A DNA stretch of 64,000 nucleotides, taken from Lysobacter lycopersici (GTDB lineage: Bacteria; Pseudomonadota; Gammaproteobacteria; Xanthomonadales; Xanthomonadaceae). The stretch lies in the NCBI RefSeq assembly GCF_007556775.1, contig NZ_CP041742.1, forward strand, positions 2,494,001 to 2,558,000, written 5' to 3'. The notes beneath the pieces were generated by a model. The model had not been told where the DNA came from. It did not search any database and saw nothing but the letters and a program-made list of their open reading frames with translations. The translations under genes and the position numbers were made by a program. Shown in pieces: positions 47,194 to 58,211 of the stretch. Position 1 is the first letter of the stretch, and the number at the start of each line of letters is the position of its first letter.

Positions 47194-47274
47194 GGCTGGC
47201 CGATTCCCGCAGCAGCTCGCGTTCTGGCTTCCATGGCACGGGCAATCCGGTCCGTGCGATTCCAGGAGCAAACC

Positions 47275-47841
47275 ATGGATCGTGTTTCCACAGCCATCGC
47301 CGTCCTCGCGGCCGCGATCGGACTCGCGTTCAGCCAATCGGCTGGGGCAGAGACCCAAAATCGCACCCAGATCCGGACTGGCGCGGACATGTGCTCGCTG
47401 AGCATTCCGACCACGGATACCAAGGTGCGGCCAAAAGCCACCGGGTTCAGGAACGAAGGCACGACCAATGCCTTCGTCATCTGCACGTTCGATACCCCTC
47501 CCGGCGGATACAGCACCACCAACAATTTCACGTATGCCGGAGTAGTGCTCAAATCGATGGATGGCGCCGATCACGACGTGACGTGCACGGGCGTGAATTC
47601 AGTTGCGGATGCCGGGGGCGTGGGCGTGTCGGAGCCGCAGTACGTGGCGAAGACCGTCACCGTCAACGATGAGGGCGAAAGCGGGCCGCTCGGCGTTGGG
47701 GTTCAGTGGGAGCCGGAGGACTTCGGGTCAACGGGCACCATCCCCGATTCGAGCGGGTTGTTCTCGGTCACCTGCATCCTGCCGCCGCAGGTGTCGATCA
47801 AGTATGGCGGTGCCGGGAGCGAAGAGGACGTGGGCAACTGA
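47275..47841 (+). CDS. four-cysteine exported family, copy 1
   Basis: This encodes 188 residues: signal peptide (about 1-25, ending AGA) and one domain not known to me. The family block is DMCSLSIPTTDTKVRPKATG, FRNEGTTNAFVICTF, VTCTGVNS, W-x3-DFGSTGT and FSVTCILPPQVSI, ending EEDVGN. The four mature cysteines (MCSL, VICT, VTCTG, VTCIL) are invariant among five paralogues in the window, so two disulfides are likely. CAGGAG lies 8 bases before ATG 47275. Paired with copy 2, 109 bp downstream. Exported to periplasm, surface or medium; function unknown. Confidence 0.85.
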   Translation: MDRVSTAIAVLAAAIGLAFSQSAGAETQNRTQIRTGADMCSLSIPTTDTKVRPKATGFRNEGTTNAFVICTFDTPPGGYSTTNNFTYAGVVLKSMDGADHDVTCTGVNSVADAGGVGVSEPQYVAKTVTVNDEGESGPLGVGVQWEPEDFGSTGTIPDSSGLFSVTCILPPQVSIKYGGAGSEEDVGN

Positions 47842-47867: not shown

Positions 47868-47950
47868 CGCGATTGGCCGGTTGGGGCGCAATTCTGCGTT
47901 CACCTTCGTCTGCATGGGCAATTTGGCCTTGCGAAACACAGGAGGCGCGG

Positions 47951-48496
47951 ATGAACCGGATGATGCCCTGCATTTTCCTGCTGGCGACTGCCGGCGGGTT
48001 CGCGATGGCGCCGCCGGCCGGCGCGGTCACCTCCACGCGGTACCAGGTCCAGACCGGCGCGAACATGTGCACGCTCAGCGTGCCCACCACGGACACCAAG
48101 GTCCGGCCGAGGGCGACCGGATACAACAACGAAGGCGCGACCAGCGCCTTCGTGATCTGTTCATTCGATCCACCCCCCGGCGCGCAGTACGGCGTCGCCA
48201 CCGAATTCAAGGATGCTTACCTGTACCTTGTGTCGCTCGATGGCATGGTGCGCGATGTCACCTGCACGGGGGTCAATTCGATAAAAACCAGCGGTCTCGT
48301 TCCGCAATTCGTGCCCAAGACGCTTTCCGTTTCGTCGACGACCACCGAGACGGCATTCGCCTGGCTTCCCGCGGATTTCGATGGAACGAGCACCATCCCG
48401 TATTCGGGAGGCGCATTCTCGGTGACCTGCATACTTCCGCCGCAAACCTCAATCGAGTTCGGCGGGGCGCACAGCGACGAGTACGTGGGCAGTTGA
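47951..48496 (+). CDS. four-cysteine exported family, copy 2
   Basis: This encodes 181 residues: signal peptide (about 1-25, FLLATAGGFAMAPPAGA). The domain has all family marks: MCTLSVPTTDTKVRPRATGY, SAFVICSF, VTCTGVNS, WLPADFDGT and FSVTCILPPQTSIEFGG, ending EYVGS. ATG 47951 has CAGGAGGCGCGG upstream. Closest relative in the window by the TTDTKVRP block is copy 1, so local tandem duplication is likely. Function unknown. Confidence 0.85.
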   Translation: MNRMMPCIFLLATAGGFAMAPPAGAVTSTRYQVQTGANMCTLSVPTTDTKVRPRATGYNNEGATSAFVICSFDPPPGAQYGVATEFKDAYLYLVSLDGMVRDVTCTGVNSIKTSGLVPQFVPKTLSVSSTTTETAFAWLPADFDGTSTIPYSGGAFSVTCILPPQTSIEFGGAHSDEYVGS

Positions 48497-49016: not shown

Positions 49017-49574
49017 ATGTATTCCCGCAGCAGCGAACCGGTGCGCTTCGAGCGCGACTGCACCGCAGTCATGGTGCCCCAGGGCGAAACCGTGACCTTG
49101 CCGGCCGGCAGCATCGGCTACATCACCCAGGCGCTGGGCGGAAGCTGGACCGTGTTCGTCGAAGGCAACCTGTTCCGCATCGCGGGCAAGGATGCCGATG
49201 CCATCGACAAGGAGCCGCCGGCTGAAATCGAATTGGCGGAGGGCGCCGGCGACGAAGACGTCGAGAAGCTGGTGTGGAAGCAGCTTCGCACCTGCTTCGA
49301 TCCCGAGATCCCGATCAACGTCGTCGACCTCGGCCTGGTATACGAAGCCGAGGTGAAGCCGCATCCGGAGCAAGCGGGGCAGCGACTGGTCGAAGTGCGC
49401 ATGACCCTCACCGCGCCCGGTTGCGGCATGGGCGAAATCCTCGTCGACGACGTGCGCAGCAAGCTGGAACTCATTCCCACCGTCGCCGAAGCCGATGTCG
49501 AACTCGTCTTCGACCCGCCGTGGACGCGCGACATGATGTCCGAGGCCGCGCGGTTGGAAACGGGGATGTTCTGA
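49017..49574 (+). CDS. sufT: putative Fe-S cluster assembly protein SufT
   Basis: This encodes 185 residues: N-terminal small beta domain (VMVPQGETVTLPAGSIGYITQALGG) and a C-terminal MIP18/DUF59 domain with EKLVWKQLRTCFDPEIPINVVDLGLVYE, the conserved cysteine in TAPGCGMGEILVDDV, and VFDPPWTRDMMSEAARLE. SufT is an accessory factor for iron-sulfur maturation; no other suf genes are in the window. Cytoplasmic. Confidence 0.94.
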   Translation: MYSRSSEPVRFERDCTAVMVPQGETVTLPAGSIGYITQALGGSWTVFVEGNLFRIAGKDADAIDKEPPAEIELAEGAGDEDVEKLVWKQLRTCFDPEIPINVVDLGLVYEAEVKPHPEQAGQRLVEVRMTLTAPGCGMGEILVDDVRSKLELIPTVAEADVELVFDPPWTRDMMSEAARLETGMF

Positions 49575-49708
49575 CGCCTTGGAGCGCCTGCACGGCGCCC
49601 TTTCCGGGATTCGCGCAGTTTCCCAACGCGAGGCATCCCGGATTTCGCCCCGGATGCCCGCCAAGCCATTGATTCGGCGGGCGTCCCGCCAATTTGCTGC
49701 ATCGCAGC

Positions 49709-49737
49709 TTGTGACTATCGGCCTAGCCCCATAGGGT
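49709..49737 (+). promoter_or_regulatory. predicted promoter of the first M4 peptidase gene
   Basis: TTGTGA (49709-49714), a 17-bp spacer, and TAGGGT (49732-49737) correspond position by position to TTGAGA-17-TAGCGT upstream of the second M4 gene. A small inverted repeat GCTGCATCGCAGC (49696-49708) sits directly before the -35, as TTGCAGTGCAA does in the paralogue. The 5' leader would be about 115 bases. Confidence 0.65.
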
Positions 49738-49790
49738 CAGGAACGGACGCTGTGCGTCAGGCGTTCACCCTCCGCTTTTCCCCGATACCG

Positions 49791-49804
49791 GACCCGTCTG
49801 GGTC
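49791..49804 (+). promoter_or_regulatory. leader palindrome GACCCGTCTGGGTC
   Basis: A 5-bp stem GACCC / GGGTC around TCTG lies 56 bases before the peptidase ATG. The paralogue has GACCCGCATGGGTC exactly 56 bases before its ATG. It may be an RNA hairpin or an operator. The rest of 49575-49860 has no gene. Confidence 0.6.
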
Positions 49805-49860
49805 AGGACAGGGAAGAGCGTTGCATACAACCCACCCATCACACTTCGGGGGAAGTCCAG

Positions 49861-52095
<2,235 letters not shown>

Positions 52096-52123
52096 TCGAT
52101 CCCTCCATCATTGCTGTACTTCG

Positions 52124-52151
52124 GACCCCGGCTTCGGCCGGGGTCTTTTTT
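52124..52151 (+). terminator. rho-independent terminator after first M4 gene
   Basis: A 9-bp stem GACCCCGGC / GCCGGGGTC with a UUCG tetraloop and six T residues. Almost identical terminators follow the second M4 gene and the gene at 54475-55122. Confidence 0.95.
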
Positions 52152-52299
52152 GCGGTGGCGGTAAAGTTAAGCGGAAAGAACCCGCCGGATCGATTCCGGA
52201 TTGGCGCACCCCGGGAAATGAATGCGCAGTAAACCGGAACCGTGATGATTCGCAAGTTATTGATTTGACGGACATCCCAAATTTTTGTTGCAGTGCAAC

Positions 52300-52328
52300 T
52301 TGAGACAGGGTGGGGCGCCCTTTAGCGT
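52300..52328 (+). promoter_or_regulatory. predicted promoter of the second M4 peptidase gene
   Basis: TTGAGA (52300-52305), a 17-bp spacer and TAGCGT (52323-52328), with the inverted repeat TTGCAGTGCAA (52288-52298) immediately upstream. Same arrangement and nearly the same distance to the ATG as in the first M4 gene, which supports a shared regulator. Confidence 0.65.
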
Positions 52329-52380
52329 CAGTTACGGACGTTCTAGGTCAGCGTTCACCCCGCATTTCCTTCGTGCTGTC

Positions 52381-52394
52381 GACCCGCATGGGTC
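52381..52394 (+). promoter_or_regulatory. leader palindrome GACCCGCATGGGTC
   Basis: Counterpart of 49791-49804; the stem is identical (GACCC / GGGTC) and only the middle four bases differ. It lies 56 bases before the ATG, the same distance as in the paralogue. Confidence 0.6.
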
Positions 52395-52449
52395 GTGGCG
52401 TGGGGGAACTCGTTTTCAAACAAACCACTTAATTCCGAGGGAAGTCCAG

Positions 52450-54291
52450 ATGTCGCATCACATGCTTACGGGCGCGCGTCCGCGTGCGCTGGCGGTTGCC
52501 GTGACCCTTGCCTGCCTTGCGCCGGCCGCGATGGCGGCTGGTCGCCAGGACCTGCACCAGGCGAACCTTGCGCAGTTGCAGTCGCACTACAACAGCCTGG
52601 TGGCCGCCAAGGGCGTGTCGTCGATGGCGCATACCCGCCATGAACAGCTGATCGGCGCTGACGCCGACAGCCGACTGGTGCTGATGTACCGCGATACCAG
52701 CCATGGCGTGCGCAACACGCGCTACCAGCAGACCTTCCGCGGGATCCCGGTCTACGGCGAGAGCATCGTGGTGAGCGAGGATGCGGCCAGCGGCAAGCTG
52801 CGGACGCTGTTCGGTCGGCAGGTGACGGGGCTTTCGGCGGAGATCGCCGATGCGCCGTCGAAGGTGTTCAAGGGCCAGGCCTTGGCGATCGCCAAGCAGG
52901 CGGCGCTGGGCGCCCGGTTGGGCGCGATGCGGACGAGCAACGAGAAGTCGGAGTTGATGATCTACGTGGACGACGCCGGGCATGCGCACAAGGCGTACGT
53001 GGTGAACTTCTTCGCCGACAGTGCGCTGGCGGGCAACAAGCCGACGCGTCCTTACGTGATCGTGGATGCGGACAGCGGCAAGGTGCTGAAGCAGTGGGAG
53101 GGCCTGACCACGGCGCTGATCGGCACCGGCCCCGGCGGAAACGAGAAGACCGGGCAGTACGAATACGGCACCGACTACGGCTTCATGGACGTGACCCAGT
53201 CGGGCAGCACCTGCACGATGAACAACAGCGAGGTCAAGACGGTCGACCTCAACCACGGTACGTCCGGCTCGACCGCGTTCTCCTACACCTGCCCACGCCA
53301 CACCGGCGACAGCGTGAACGGCGGCTACTCGCCGCTGAACGACGCGCACTACTTCGGCAGCGTGATCCAGAACATGTACAACGCCTACGTCGGCACCAAT
53401 GCGCTGACGTTCCAGTTGGTGATGCGCGTGCACTACAGCACCAACTACGAGAACGCGTTCTGGGACGGCTCGACGATGAACTTCGGCGACGGCAGGAACA
53501 CGTTCTACCCGCTGGTGAGCGTCGATGTCGCCGGCCACGAGGTCTCGCACGGATTCACCGAGCAGCATTCGGGCCTGTGCTACGCCAACGGCAGCGATTG
53601 CGGTGGCATGAACGAAGCTTATTCCGACATCGCGGGCGAGGCCGCCGAGTACTACTTCAAGGGCAGCAACGACTTCCTGGTGGGCGAGGAGATCTTCAAG
53701 GGCGCGTCGGGCCAGGCCCTGCGCTACATGTGCAACCCGCCGCAGGACGGCATTTCGATCGACAATGCCGCGGACATGACCCGCCGGATCAACCCGCACT
53801 ACTCGTCGGGCGTGTACAACAAGGCGTTCTGCACCCTGGCCAAGACCAGCGGCTGGGATACGCCGAAGGCGTTCAAGATCTTCGCGCGCGCGAACGCCAA
53901 CTACTGGACGGCGAGCAGTTCGTTCGACGATGGCGCCTGCGGCGTCAAGACCGCGGCCACCGACCTCGGTTACACCACCACCGACCAGGCCAATATCGAC
54001 GCGGCCTTCAACGTGGTGGGCGTGAGCTGCTCCGGTGGTGGTACCAACACTCCGCCGGTGGCGAGCTTCACGATCAAGACCCAGGGCAAGTTCGTGCAGG
54101 TCACCAGCACGTCCACCGATTCGGACGGAACCATCGTTTCGGTGAAGTGGGATTCGGGCGACGGCAGGACCTCGACCAAGACCCCGCTCACCTACAAGTA
54201 CGCCAGCTCCGGCACCTACACGGTGACGCTGACGGTGACCGACGACGACGGCGCGACCAACAGCACGAGCAAGTCGGTGACGATTCCGTAA
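52450..54291 (+). CDS. secreted M4 metallopeptidase with C-terminal PKD domain
   Basis: This is a 613-residue paralogue of the preceding peptidase. Signal peptide 1-30 and propeptide are almost the same (GRQDLHQANLAQLQ, RYQQTFRGIPVYGES). Zinc motif HEVSH at His363/Glu364/His367 and Glu389 in GGMNEAYSDIAGE are intact. An extra disulfide-capable insertion (CYANGSDC) lies between them. Instead of PPC domains it carries one PKD domain (about 533-613, NTPPVASFTIKT, SGTYTVTLTVTDDDGATN), often a substrate- or surface-binding module. The start ATG 52450 is fixed by the identical leader AAGTCCAG; the frame is open further upstream. Secreted. Confidence 0.96.
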   Translation: MSHHMLTGARPRALAVAVTLACLAPAAMAAGRQDLHQANLAQLQSHYNSLVAAKGVSSMAHTRHEQLIGADADSRLVLMYRDTSHGVRNTRYQQTFRGIPVYGESIVVSEDAASGKLRTLFGRQVTGLSAEIADAPSKVFKGQALAIAKQAALGARLGAMRTSNEKSELMIYVDDAGHAHKAYVVNFFADSALAGNKPTRPYVIVDADSGKVLKQWEGLTTALIGTGPGGNEKTGQYEYGTDYGFMDVTQSGSTCTMNNSEVKTVDLNHGTSGSTAFSYTCPRHTGDSVNGGYSPLNDAHYFGSVIQNMYNAYVGTNALTFQLVMRVHYSTNYENAFWDGSTMNFGDGRNTFYPLVSVDVAGHEVSHGFTEQHSGLCYANGSDCGGMNEAYSDIAGEAAEYYFKGSNDFLVGEEIFKGASGQALRYMCNPPQDGISIDNAADMTRRINPHYSSGVYNKAFCTLAKTSGWDTPKAFKIFARANANYWTASSSFDDGACGVKTAATDLGYTTTDQANIDAAFNVVGVSCSGGGTNTPPVASFTIKTQGKFVQVTSTSTDSDGTIVSVKWDSGDGRTSTKTPLTYKYASSGTYTVTLTVTDDDGATNSTSKSVTIP

Positions 54292-55145: not shown

Positions 55146-55173
55146 ACCCCGGCTCCGGCCGGGGTTTGTTTTT
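55146..55173 (+). terminator. rho-independent terminator, third copy of the same type
   Basis: Stem ACCCCGGC / GCCGGGGT, loop TCCG, followed by TTGTTTTT and then CCGGG as in the other two copies. Confidence 0.9.
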
Positions 55174-55279
55174 CCGGGCATCGGACGATTTGCGGCGATG
55201 GGTCCGACATGTCCGGTTTCGCCTTGGTTCTGCGCATAAGCGTATCGCTGGCGATCCGCCAGTCGCACGGGAAACCCAC

Positions 55280-55825
55280 ATGAAGGCGAGCAAACGAGCG
55301 ATCCGGGCAATGGCGGTGTCGGGGATCGCGGGACTATTCCTGTTGCCCGGAGCCCGGGCCGCCGTCAGCGAGCGCTGGAACAACGTGAACGCGGCGCAGG
55401 CCTGCCAGCTCAGCATCCCGACGATCGATACCGTGGTCTCTCCGCGCGCGACCGGATTCCGCAACCCCGGGCCCAATGGTGCCTTCGTCATCTGCGGTGT
55501 TTCCAAGGATGCCGGCATCAGCACGGGAGTGAGCATTGCCCGTCTCTGGCTCACATCGACAGATGGCGCACAGCATTCCGTCACATGCACCGGAGTTGCC
55601 GGTGCCTCGGGGATCGAACCGCTGGTCTACATCACCAAGACGCACTCTGCAGTCGGTGCCAGCTATAGCATCATCGACTGGACCAGCGCGGACTTCGGCG
55701 GAGGTGGAGGCGGAGTCGACCCGATGCCGGGTACGGGCAACACGTTCTCGATCACCTGCAACCTTCCGCCGCAGGTGCAGATCGTCTTGGCCAGCGCCAA
55801 GTACTACGTCGACGTCGGAAACTGA
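55280..55825 (+). CDS. four-cysteine exported family, copy 3
   Basis: This encodes 181 residues: signal peptide about 1-27 (IAGLFLLPGARA). Family domain: AQACQLSIPTIDTVVSPRAT, FRNPGPNGAFVICGV, VTCTGVAG, DWTSADFGGG and FSITCNLPPQVQIV, ending YVDVGN. The four cysteines are kept. It shares TIDxVVxPRATGFRNPG with copy 4, 82 bp downstream, marking a second subgroup. A (Gly)5 loop after DF is unique to this copy. Function unknown. Confidence 0.85.
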   Translation: MKASKRAIRAMAVSGIAGLFLLPGARAAVSERWNNVNAAQACQLSIPTIDTVVSPRATGFRNPGPNGAFVICGVSKDAGISTGVSIARLWLTSTDGAQHSVTCTGVAGASGIEPLVYITKTHSAVGASYSIIDWTSADFGGGGGGVDPMPGTGNTFSITCNLPPQVQIVLASAKYYVDVGN

Positions 55826-55907: not shown

Positions 55908-56456
55908 ATGCCCAGGATGAACGTGTCGTCGCGAGCAATGTTCGGAGCAATGGCCGCTGTTCTCGGCATCGGGTTTCCGGTCGCGACGAAAGCCGCAATC
56001 AGCAATCACTGGATCTATGTGAACGCGGCACAAGCCTGCCAACTGAGCATTCCGACCATCGATAGCGTCGTGGCGCCGCGCGCCACCGGGTTCCGCAACC
56101 CGGGCACGACCGGGGCCTTCGTCATTTGCGGTTTGACCAAGGACACGGAAGCCGGTACCGGTTTCATCTACGTGAATGTGTGGCTCAACTCCATGGATGG
56201 CGCGACACATGCCATCTCGTGTACCGGCGTGGCCGGCGCCATGGGGGTAGACCATGCGTTGCAGTACGTAACGAAGAATCTCGACGTGGGTTCCGCGTCC
56301 GACAACGTCATCGCATGGACCGCCGCGGATTTCGGCGGAACATCCGGTACCGAAATGAAAGGCGGCGATTACACGTTCTCGATTACCTGCAACCTGCCGC
56401 CGCAGGTGCAGATCGTCTCCGCGAACGCCAGCTACAACGTCTACATCGGCAGCTGA
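55908..56456 (+). CDS. four-cysteine exported family, copy 4
   Basis: This encodes 182 residues: signal peptide about 1-29 (FGAMAAVLGIGFPVATKA). Family domain: AQACQLSIPTIDSVVAPRAT, FRNPGTTGAFVICGL, ISCTGVAG, WTAADFGGTSGT and FSITCNLPPQVQIVSA, ending VYIGS. ATG 55917, three codons on, is an alternative start. Tandem duplicate of copy 3. The GGCGGAxCATCC context differs from copies 1 and 2. Function unknown. Confidence 0.85.
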   Translation: MPRMNVSSRAMFGAMAAVLGIGFPVATKAAISNHWIYVNAAQACQLSIPTIDSVVAPRATGFRNPGTTGAFVICGLTKDTEAGTGFIYVNVWLNSMDGATHAISCTGVAGAMGVDHALQYVTKNLDVGSASDNVIAWTAADFGGTSGTEMKGGDYTFSITCNLPPQVQIVSANASYNVYIGS

Positions 56457-56615
56457 ATCATCCGGATTTGGCCCGGTCGATGCGCCTTGGCTTCGGCTGG
56501 GATTGCCTGAAACGGCAAAGGTCGTGGACAGGGTCGGCATGTTCCCGCATTCGGTATCTCCGCTCCGCGACTGGTGGTAACGTCGACTCGTGAGGCGCAC
56601 GGCGCGGGGTGGGGC

Positions 56616-58211
56616 ATGAAGCGATTGCTTGGTGCATTCATGGTGCTTGCGGCGAGCGTGCCGATGGCGATGCTCGCGCGGAGCAGCGTGCGCGGATTCG
56701 CCGTCGCCTTGCCGCCGATCGGGCCGGTAAGCGCTTCACCGATGCAGGCACGAGAGGGGAAGATCGCCACTCGACTCGCGCGTGCCGCTGCATCCGATCG
56801 CAACATGACAGGCGCGGACGGACTCCGAAAACGCATGCCACTGCAATCGGGTGGCGCATCGTTCCATGCACGATCCGGGATCGATCGGCAGCTTGCTGCC
56901 TTGGGCCAGCCGGAGGATCCGTTCGCGCCCGTCTACGTGGTCACGTCGCGCAAGACCTACGACGGCATCCGTCATCTGGCGCGCACCAGCGTCGTCCGTC
57001 GCGACAGCATCGGTAACCAACTGGTCTTGTCCGAGATCCCGGAGCATCAGCTCGACGCGCTGGTCGGATACATCCACGAGCGGGAACGGCGCTGCGGCGG
57101 TTATTTCGCCTTCGATACGCGCGAACGGGCCGAGGCCTTCATCCGCGCGGATCGCTCGCGACAGGCGATCCAGCAGTCCACGCTCGCCGGCTACAGCCTC
57201 GACAACCAGGACACGGTGGACGCGTGGTTGCCGCAGGTCAGTGAACAGAACATCTACGACACCATCAACCAGCTGCAGGCGTACCAGAATCGCTACTACG
57301 CCAGCGCCACCGGCAAGTCGTCCGCGGAATGGATCCGCCGCCACTGGCAGGCGCTCGCTGCGGGGCGCGCCGACGTCAGCACCGAGCTGTTCACGGCGTG
57401 CGCGAACTGCAGCACCCAGCCTTCCGTGATCCTGACCATCCGCGGGATCGAACTGCCGAACGAGGTCGTGGTGCTCGGAGGGCACCTGGATTCGATCAAC
57501 GCGAGCGATCGCAACAATCTCGCGCAGCGCGCGCCCGGGGCGGACGACGATGCTTCGGGCATCGCCACCCTGACCGAGGTGCTGCGCGTGGCCATGGCAA
57601 GCGGCTGGCACCCGAAGCGCACGGTGAAGTTCATGGGCTATGCAGCGGAGGAAGTCGGTCTGCGTGGCTCCGCGGCGATCGCGCAATCCTTCCGCAACGC
57701 CGGGACCAACGTGGTCGGCGTTCTGCAATTGGACATGACCAATTACAAGTCGGGTGCGGTCACGGACATGAAGCTGATCAGCGACTACTCCAACACCGAT
57801 CTGAAGGCATTCTTCGTGCAGTTGTTCGATGGTTATCTCGCGCCCAGGGGATTCACCCGCAGCGCGGTGGCCTGCGGATACGCCTGCTCCGACCATGCAT
57901 CATGGACTGCGGCGGGATATCCGGCGGCGATGATGTTCGAAGCCGGGGATCCGAACGGCGATTTCCCCTACATCCACACGACCCTGGACACGTTGTCGAC
58001 GATGGGCGAGTCGGCCCGGAACAGCGTCAAGTTCGCGCAGTTCGGCCTGGCGTTCCTGGGCGAGACGGCGAAGACTTCATTGTGGGCGACCGCCGACTGC
58101 AGATTGCCGCCAAGGGCTTCACTGGCCGCTTCGGCCAACCTGCAGGCGTCGCCGGGCCTGATCAGTCCGTTGCCTCGAACCGGTTCGCATCCACGTTCTT
58201 CCTTACCTTGA
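56616..58211 (+). CDS. secreted M28 aminopeptidase, leucyl-aminopeptidase type
   Basis: This is a 531-residue zinc exopeptidase resembling the Vibrio proteolyticus aminopeptidase. N-terminal hydrophobic signal (about 1-24), propeptide to about 210, then the M28 fold with zinc ligands in GGHLDS (near 290), GADDDASG (near 310), AAEEVGLRG (near 343), QLDMTNY and HTTLDT (near 455). A Cys pair CGYACSDHASW is near the active site. The last ~40 residues after GETAKT look unlike the family and run 50 bp into the convergent asparaginase gene. It probably trims peptides made by the M4 enzymes. Confidence 0.93.
   Translation: MKRLLGAFMVLAASVPMAMLARSSVRGFAVALPPIGPVSASPMQAREGKIATRLARAAASDRNMTGADGLRKRMPLQSGGASFHARSGIDRQLAALGQPEDPFAPVYVVTSRKTYDGIRHLARTSVVRRDSIGNQLVLSEIPEHQLDALVGYIHERERRCGGYFAFDTRERAEAFIRADRSRQAIQQSTLAGYSLDNQDTVDAWLPQVSEQNIYDTINQLQAYQNRYYASATGKSSAEWIRRHWQALAAGRADVSTELFTACANCSTQPSVILTIRGIELPNEVVVLGGHLDSINASDRNNLAQRAPGADDDASGIATLTEVLRVAMASGWHPKRTVKFMGYAAEEVGLRGSAAIAQSFRNAGTNVVGVLQLDMTNYKSGAVTDMKLISDYSNTDLKAFFVQLFDGYLAPRGFTRSAVACGYACSDHASWTAAGYPAAMMFEAGDPNGDFPYIHTTLDTLSTMGESARNSVKFAQFGLAFLGETAKTSLWATADCRLPPRASLAASANLQASPGLISPLPRTGSHPRSSLP

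Follow-up and report, generated by a model that had tools for sequence, protein, structure and literature searches.

The locus considered here raises a question of regulation. Two tandem genes for secreted M4 metalloproteases are each preceded by an inverted repeat, a promoter and a palindromic leader that closely resemble one another, and it is asked whether this resemblance is a relic of duplication or a retained control device and, in the latter case, which regulator would read it. The window, i.e. the whole stretch of DNA analysed, comprises 64,000 nucleotides of a 2.6-Mb genome assembled as a single contig, with Lysobacter, Thermomonas and Luteimonas as relatives by protein similarity. 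The first M4 gene (49861-52095, forward strand) encodes a thermolysin-type secreted metalloprotease of 744 amino acids with two PPC domains, and the second (52450-54291, forward strand) a secreted metalloprotease of 613 amino acids with a PKD domain. The two proteins are 78-79% identical across about residues 1-558, and the genome encodes a third M4 paralogue at another locus (C1:2444387), with 60-69% identity over the shared part. At the DNA level the pair is 84-89% identical in the first 750 coding bases (signal and propeptide) and 73% identical just after, a pattern for which gene conversion or a constrained propeptide may be responsible. The 200-bp regions upstream of the two genes are ~60% identical overall. 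Between the genes lies an intrinsic-terminator-like hairpin followed by a T run (52123-52146, forward strand), and the second gene therefore needs a promoter of its own. The neighborhood also contains members of a family of secreted proteins of ~180-200 amino acids with at least five copies (window positions 47233-47841, about 47950-48496, 55166-55825 and 55908-56456 and, immediately after the phasin gene, L004:2151-2711). This family displays the motif CxLSIPTT(D/N)TxVxPxATGFRNxG...VSCTGV...FS(V/I)TCxLPPQ, and neither Pfam (three copies tested) nor NCBIfam (two copies tested) yielded a match.

An inverted repeat is present directly upstream of the -35 element in both M4 genes, as the original prediction had stated. 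Box 1, TTGCTGCATCGCAGC (CTGC-N3-GCAG; 49694-49708, forward strand), is centered at about -43 from the predicted transcription start and adjoins the -35 element TTGTGA (49709-49714), which is followed after a 17-bp spacer by the -10 element TAGGGT (49732-49737). Box 2, TTGTTGCAGTGCAAC (52285-52299, forward strand), adjoins TTGAGA (52300-52305), again with a 17-bp spacer and TAGCGT (52323-52328) as the -10 element. All four hexamers are on the forward strand and their coordinates agree with the predicted arrangement of TTG(T/A)GA, exactly 17 bases and TAG(G/C)GT; the spacing in both promoters falls within the 16-18 bp of sigma-70 promoters. The hexamers are weak, because a strict sigma-70 consensus scan (9 of 12 positions) found no match at the M4 promoters. 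The promoter call is nevertheless backed by relatives, since KTGW-N19/20-TAGSG occurs in 33 of 93 non-redundant M4 upstream regions of the family versus 17 of 2010 control windows. A CRP/Clp-type site (TGTGA-N6-TCACA) at TTGTGA was rejected, being absent on inspection. The inverted repeat had also been proposed to serve sigma recognition, which does not fit, because it lies upstream of the -35 element and matches a transcription-factor operator.

Upstream of the third paralogue stands TTGTTGCGACGCAGC-TTGAGG-N17-TAGTTT, and its distance to the ATG is almost equal to that in the pair. When the whole 2.6-Mb genome was scanned for the combined motif YTGCRNYGCARCTTG-N20-TAG, three exact matches were recovered, which are the three M4 promoters, and no site with one mismatch exists in the whole genome; the recurrence predicted at this locus is thus not due to chance. 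A scan for the box alone (TTGYTGCANYGCARC) gave four distinct exact sites, namely the two M4 promoters, the phasin promoter and one site internal to an ORF. The phasin site, TTGTTGCATTGCAACAA, is located ~65 bases upstream of a gene with a Phasin_2-matching product, and an acetyl-CoA acetyltransferase gene has a site with one mismatch in front of it. These two sites point to PHA metabolism.

Both this type of operator and its regulator, PhaR, are already known. The PhaR site consensus of R. eutropha is YTKNTGCRNYGCANMAR (PMC12849132), those of S. meliloti are palindromes centered on YGCRNYGCR (PMC12542648), and the sites of R. sphaeroides and B. diazoefficiens are CTGCNNNGCAG (PMC12542648) and TGCRNYGCASMA (PMC6201568), respectively. 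Operators of this kind (R. eutropha phaP1 BS1, B. diazoefficiens phaP1 and phaP4, and the S. meliloti AniA/PhaR sites) have a palindrome with the YGCRNYGCR core in common. All three of the genome's own M4 boxes contain that core (TGCRNYGCA / YGCRNYGCR). Against the 17-bp R. eutropha consensus each has two mismatches, within the limit of three set by PMC12849132 for a PhaR operator, and the phasin site has none. Both M4-box mismatches, at the outer A/R of the consensus, fall on the -35 side, where TTG begins. The M4 boxes thus resemble published PhaR operators in lying immediately before the -35 element or overlapping it, and the genome resembles published PhaR systems in possessing phaR and in having its best site at its own phasin gene. 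They differ in having lost the outer consensus base on the -35 side and in serving secreted proteases rather than PHA or central-carbon genes. The phaR gene itself (PF07879, E 1.2e-30; PF05233; TIGR01848 above cut-off) sits between two phaB-like genes and occurs in 195 of 198 family genomes. A class III PhaC (PHA synthase) is encoded as well, and class I/II PhaC_N is absent from the genome. The shared regulator site that had been postulated upstream of both genes is therefore supported and can be assigned as PhaR-like; we estimate the probability that it is a PhaR operator at roughly 0.58.

How far this assignment extends beyond one genome was assessed with the R. eutropha consensus, which was taken from PMC12849132 and not fitted to family sequences. 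As a positive control, each of the 30 family phasin loci tested has the consensus with 0-2 mismatches in its upstream 250 bases (29 of the 30 with at most one mismatch), and the opposite orientation gave 3-6 mismatches. Family phasin promoters (L143-L172) also display a second PhaR-like site, TATGCTGCACCGCACAA, overlapping the -10 element, a two-site layout resembling that of R. eutropha phaP1. Among 130 M4 upstream regions, 10 have a PhaR site if up to one mismatch is allowed, where dinucleotide shuffles would give 0.45, and 29 if up to two are allowed (6.9 in shuffles), although the family sequences are related and p-values overstate their independence. YTGC-Nx-GCAR was enriched in M4 upstream regions at x=3 (32 versus 4.2 in shuffles) and x=4 (23 versus 4.75), with no enrichment at x=2 or 5; enrichment at x=6-7 may reflect leader hairpins. 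A composite of box and promoter, CTGC-N3/4-GCAGC-KTGA-N19/20-TAG, matched 20 times in the 198 family genomes, and 16 of these matches precede secreted hydrolases: nine M4 proteases, four S8 subtilases, one M28 peptidase and two secreted lipase-like hydrolases. The raw count is not over-represented (28 for the reversed control); it is the identity of the downstream genes for which chance does not account. The SufT-M4 neighborhood of the window recurs in Thermomonas, where the corresponding intergenic region, upstream of M4, holds a PhaR site with zero mismatches. No convincing box was seen at M4 genes of Shewanella, Pseudoalteromonas, Undibacterium or Rhodanobacteraceae. The window itself, not far from the M4 pair, also encodes an M28 peptidase (56574-58211), whose gene has no PhaR-like box upstream; a relative of this gene in another genome (L250) has a box promoter.

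M4 promoters in Lysobacter are of sigma-70 type (TTGACG-N17/18-TAGCGTC) and share with those described here the -10 element TAGSGT and its spacing, whereas the -35 element here is weaker and is adjoined by a PhaR-like box. Across 32 M4 promoters compared, those with a box never had TTGAC at -35 and box-less ones of the Lysobacter type always did (Fisher p ~4e-8), in a comparison where clade and promoter class are confounded. The weaker -35 element of the box promoters would suit an activator better than a repressor. At three loci with box-less M4 promoters (L120, L128 and L173) another dyad, TGACGnnnnnCGTCA, spans the -35 element and spacer and is possibly a different operator.

Downstream of the promoters, the palindrome GACCC-N4-GGGTC forms the tip of a stem-loop in both leaders. 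In stem-loop 1 (49773-49820, forward strand; -27.8 kcal/mol for the folded segment) the palindrome is GACCCGTCTGGGTC at 49791-49804, and in stem-loop 2 (52366-52408, forward strand; -25.8 kcal/mol) it is GACCCGCATGGGTC at 52381-52394; none of 200 shuffles was as stable in either case (z -3.4 and -2.9, respectively). The lower stems differ in sequence between the two and pair in both. The palindrome had been placed 56 bases before each ATG, which holds for the first gene (ATG at 49861) but is 55 for the second (ATG at 52450). It occurs four times in 2.6 Mb, twice before these M4 genes, against none for the reversed control. In the third paralogue GACC/GGGTC arms with a longer loop end 55 bases before the ATG, and its longer leader fold is not clearly better than shuffles. 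The leader end, GGGAAGTCCAG-ATG, is identical in the pair, and by inspection the ribosome-binding site of the first gene is GGGGGAAG (49848-49855, forward strand). The prediction that bases outside the shared elements have diverged holds in part: divergence is not uniform, and GTCAG..ACGGACG..GTCA(G)GCGTTCACCC, which is transcribed early, is retained just as well.

What the family keeps in this leader is the stem-loop, not the sequence. In 93 non-redundant M4 leaders a sharp folding-energy minimum is centered at -41 (-8.2 versus -4.3 kcal/mol for shuffles, z -12.6), and downstream of it, between about -31 and -13, the leaders are unstructured; the genome's own stem-loops lie ~20 bases further upstream. 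A control with flanking ORFs, itself contaminated by spurious ORFs, still differed significantly at -41, if less strongly (p ~7e-4). RNAalifold, run on alignments of 26 and of 18 leaders, returned a consensus stem of only four pairs, or none, since these hairpins cannot be aligned; the case for a leader stem-loop therefore rests on position-specific folding rather than formal covariation. Membership in a known RNA leader family was rejected, as Rfam covariance models gave no match in 49500-52600 at E up to 1. The exact palindrome is absent outside these two genes among 130 M4 upstream regions, and it was consequently rejected as a conserved operator. In orthologous promoters the inverted repeat and the spacing of the promoter are thus retained; neither the GACCC sequence nor its precise location is. 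Stem-loops that stabilize the mRNA or act as standby elements are exemplified by the 5'-UTR of E. coli ompA. The M4 leader is similar in having a stem-loop upstream of an unstructured ribosome-binding site and differs in lacking an Rfam match and in that its role is putative.

These observations bear on three other readings of the locus. Simple duplication, with the common elements being residual similarity whose function was not retained, would accord with the genes being tandem paralogues whose first 750 coding bases are, for the most part, ~85% identical in DNA, but the box, -35 and -10 elements are conserved together in other genera as well as in the third, more distant paralogue, and they recur before non-homologous hydrolases, so that this reading is very improbable. 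It is also improbable, if less so, that GACCC-N4-GGGTC serves as the DNA operator at which a repressor binds the leader, instead of forming the apex of an RNA stem-loop. Long lower stems of different sequence still pair around the palindrome in copies 1 and 2, the third paralogue keeps only the arms, with a longer loop at distance 55, all other M4 upstream regions examined lack the palindrome, and the stem-loop of relatives near -41 is of unrelated sequence; these points outweigh the perfect dyad in both copies, its distances of 56 and 55 bases and its mere four copies in the genome. Of the hairpin and operator originally suggested for the leader, it is thus the hairpin that persists, and an RNA role for the palindrome is more likely than one as a DNA operator.

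The box could, moreover, be the operator of another hydrolase regulator, probably an activator, that acts on CTGC-N3/4-GCAG and is PhaR-like in sequence only. Published PhaR sites are built around one central base (N3), as are the genome's own boxes and the family phasin boxes, whereas adjoining M4 boxes in relatives mostly have a 4-base spacer; either PhaR tolerates both spacers or there is a second regulator. That N4 dominates the M4, S8 and M28 boxes of relatives and not the phasin boxes in the same genomes would favor a second regulator, as would the weak -35 element of box promoters and the placing of the box, which at about -43 is close to where class II activators bind. Yet the genome studied here has N3 with the full PhaR core in a 15-mer pattern common to its own phasin promoter, and Thermomonas M4 genes have zero-mismatch PhaR consensus sites, which leaves a separate regulator possible but rather unlikely.

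In the most likely reading, the two M4 genes are transcribed separately, each from a weak sigma-70-type promoter (TTG(T/A)GA-N17-TAG(G/C)GT) that PhaR gates. Free PhaR would be expected on the box adjoining the -35 element, and accumulating PHA granules would bind PhaR and cause it to leave the box, thereby tuning secreted protease output to carbon storage. We infer both the binding of PhaR and the direction of its control from sequence features, and activation by PhaR is possible at these promoters, with repression not the sole option. The transcript would begin with a leader of ~115 nt that folds into a stem-loop of 43-48 nt with GACCC-N4-GGGTC at its tip; this stem-loop probably shields the mRNA or leaves the ribosome-binding site accessible. 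Somewhat more tentatively, at slightly less than even odds, a Lysobacteraceae-wide exoenzyme regulon may exist in which PhaR, set free from PHA granules or captured by them, directly controls M4, S8 and M28 proteases and lipases through the fused box, -35 and -10 elements, together with an M4 leader stem-loop conserved in structure only.

PhaR regulons in the cited papers comprise PHA, central carbon, exopolysaccharide and respiration genes. No link between PhaR and secreted proteases was found in the openly accessible literature, and extracellular proteases go unmentioned in a study of a Xanthomonas oryzae phaR mutant. Lysobacter-type bacteria are under study as biocontrol agents and enzyme producers, so a switch for protease output would be of practical use. 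If the present reading is true, having a direct PhaR box at the promoters of secreted proteases and lipases would amount to a simple rule linking storage and digestion, and cells that store carbon while short of another nutrient would switch protein digestion via the same sensor. The promoter box shared by the M4 pair and its recurrence in the family suggest a regulatory coupling of carbon storage to protein scavenging.
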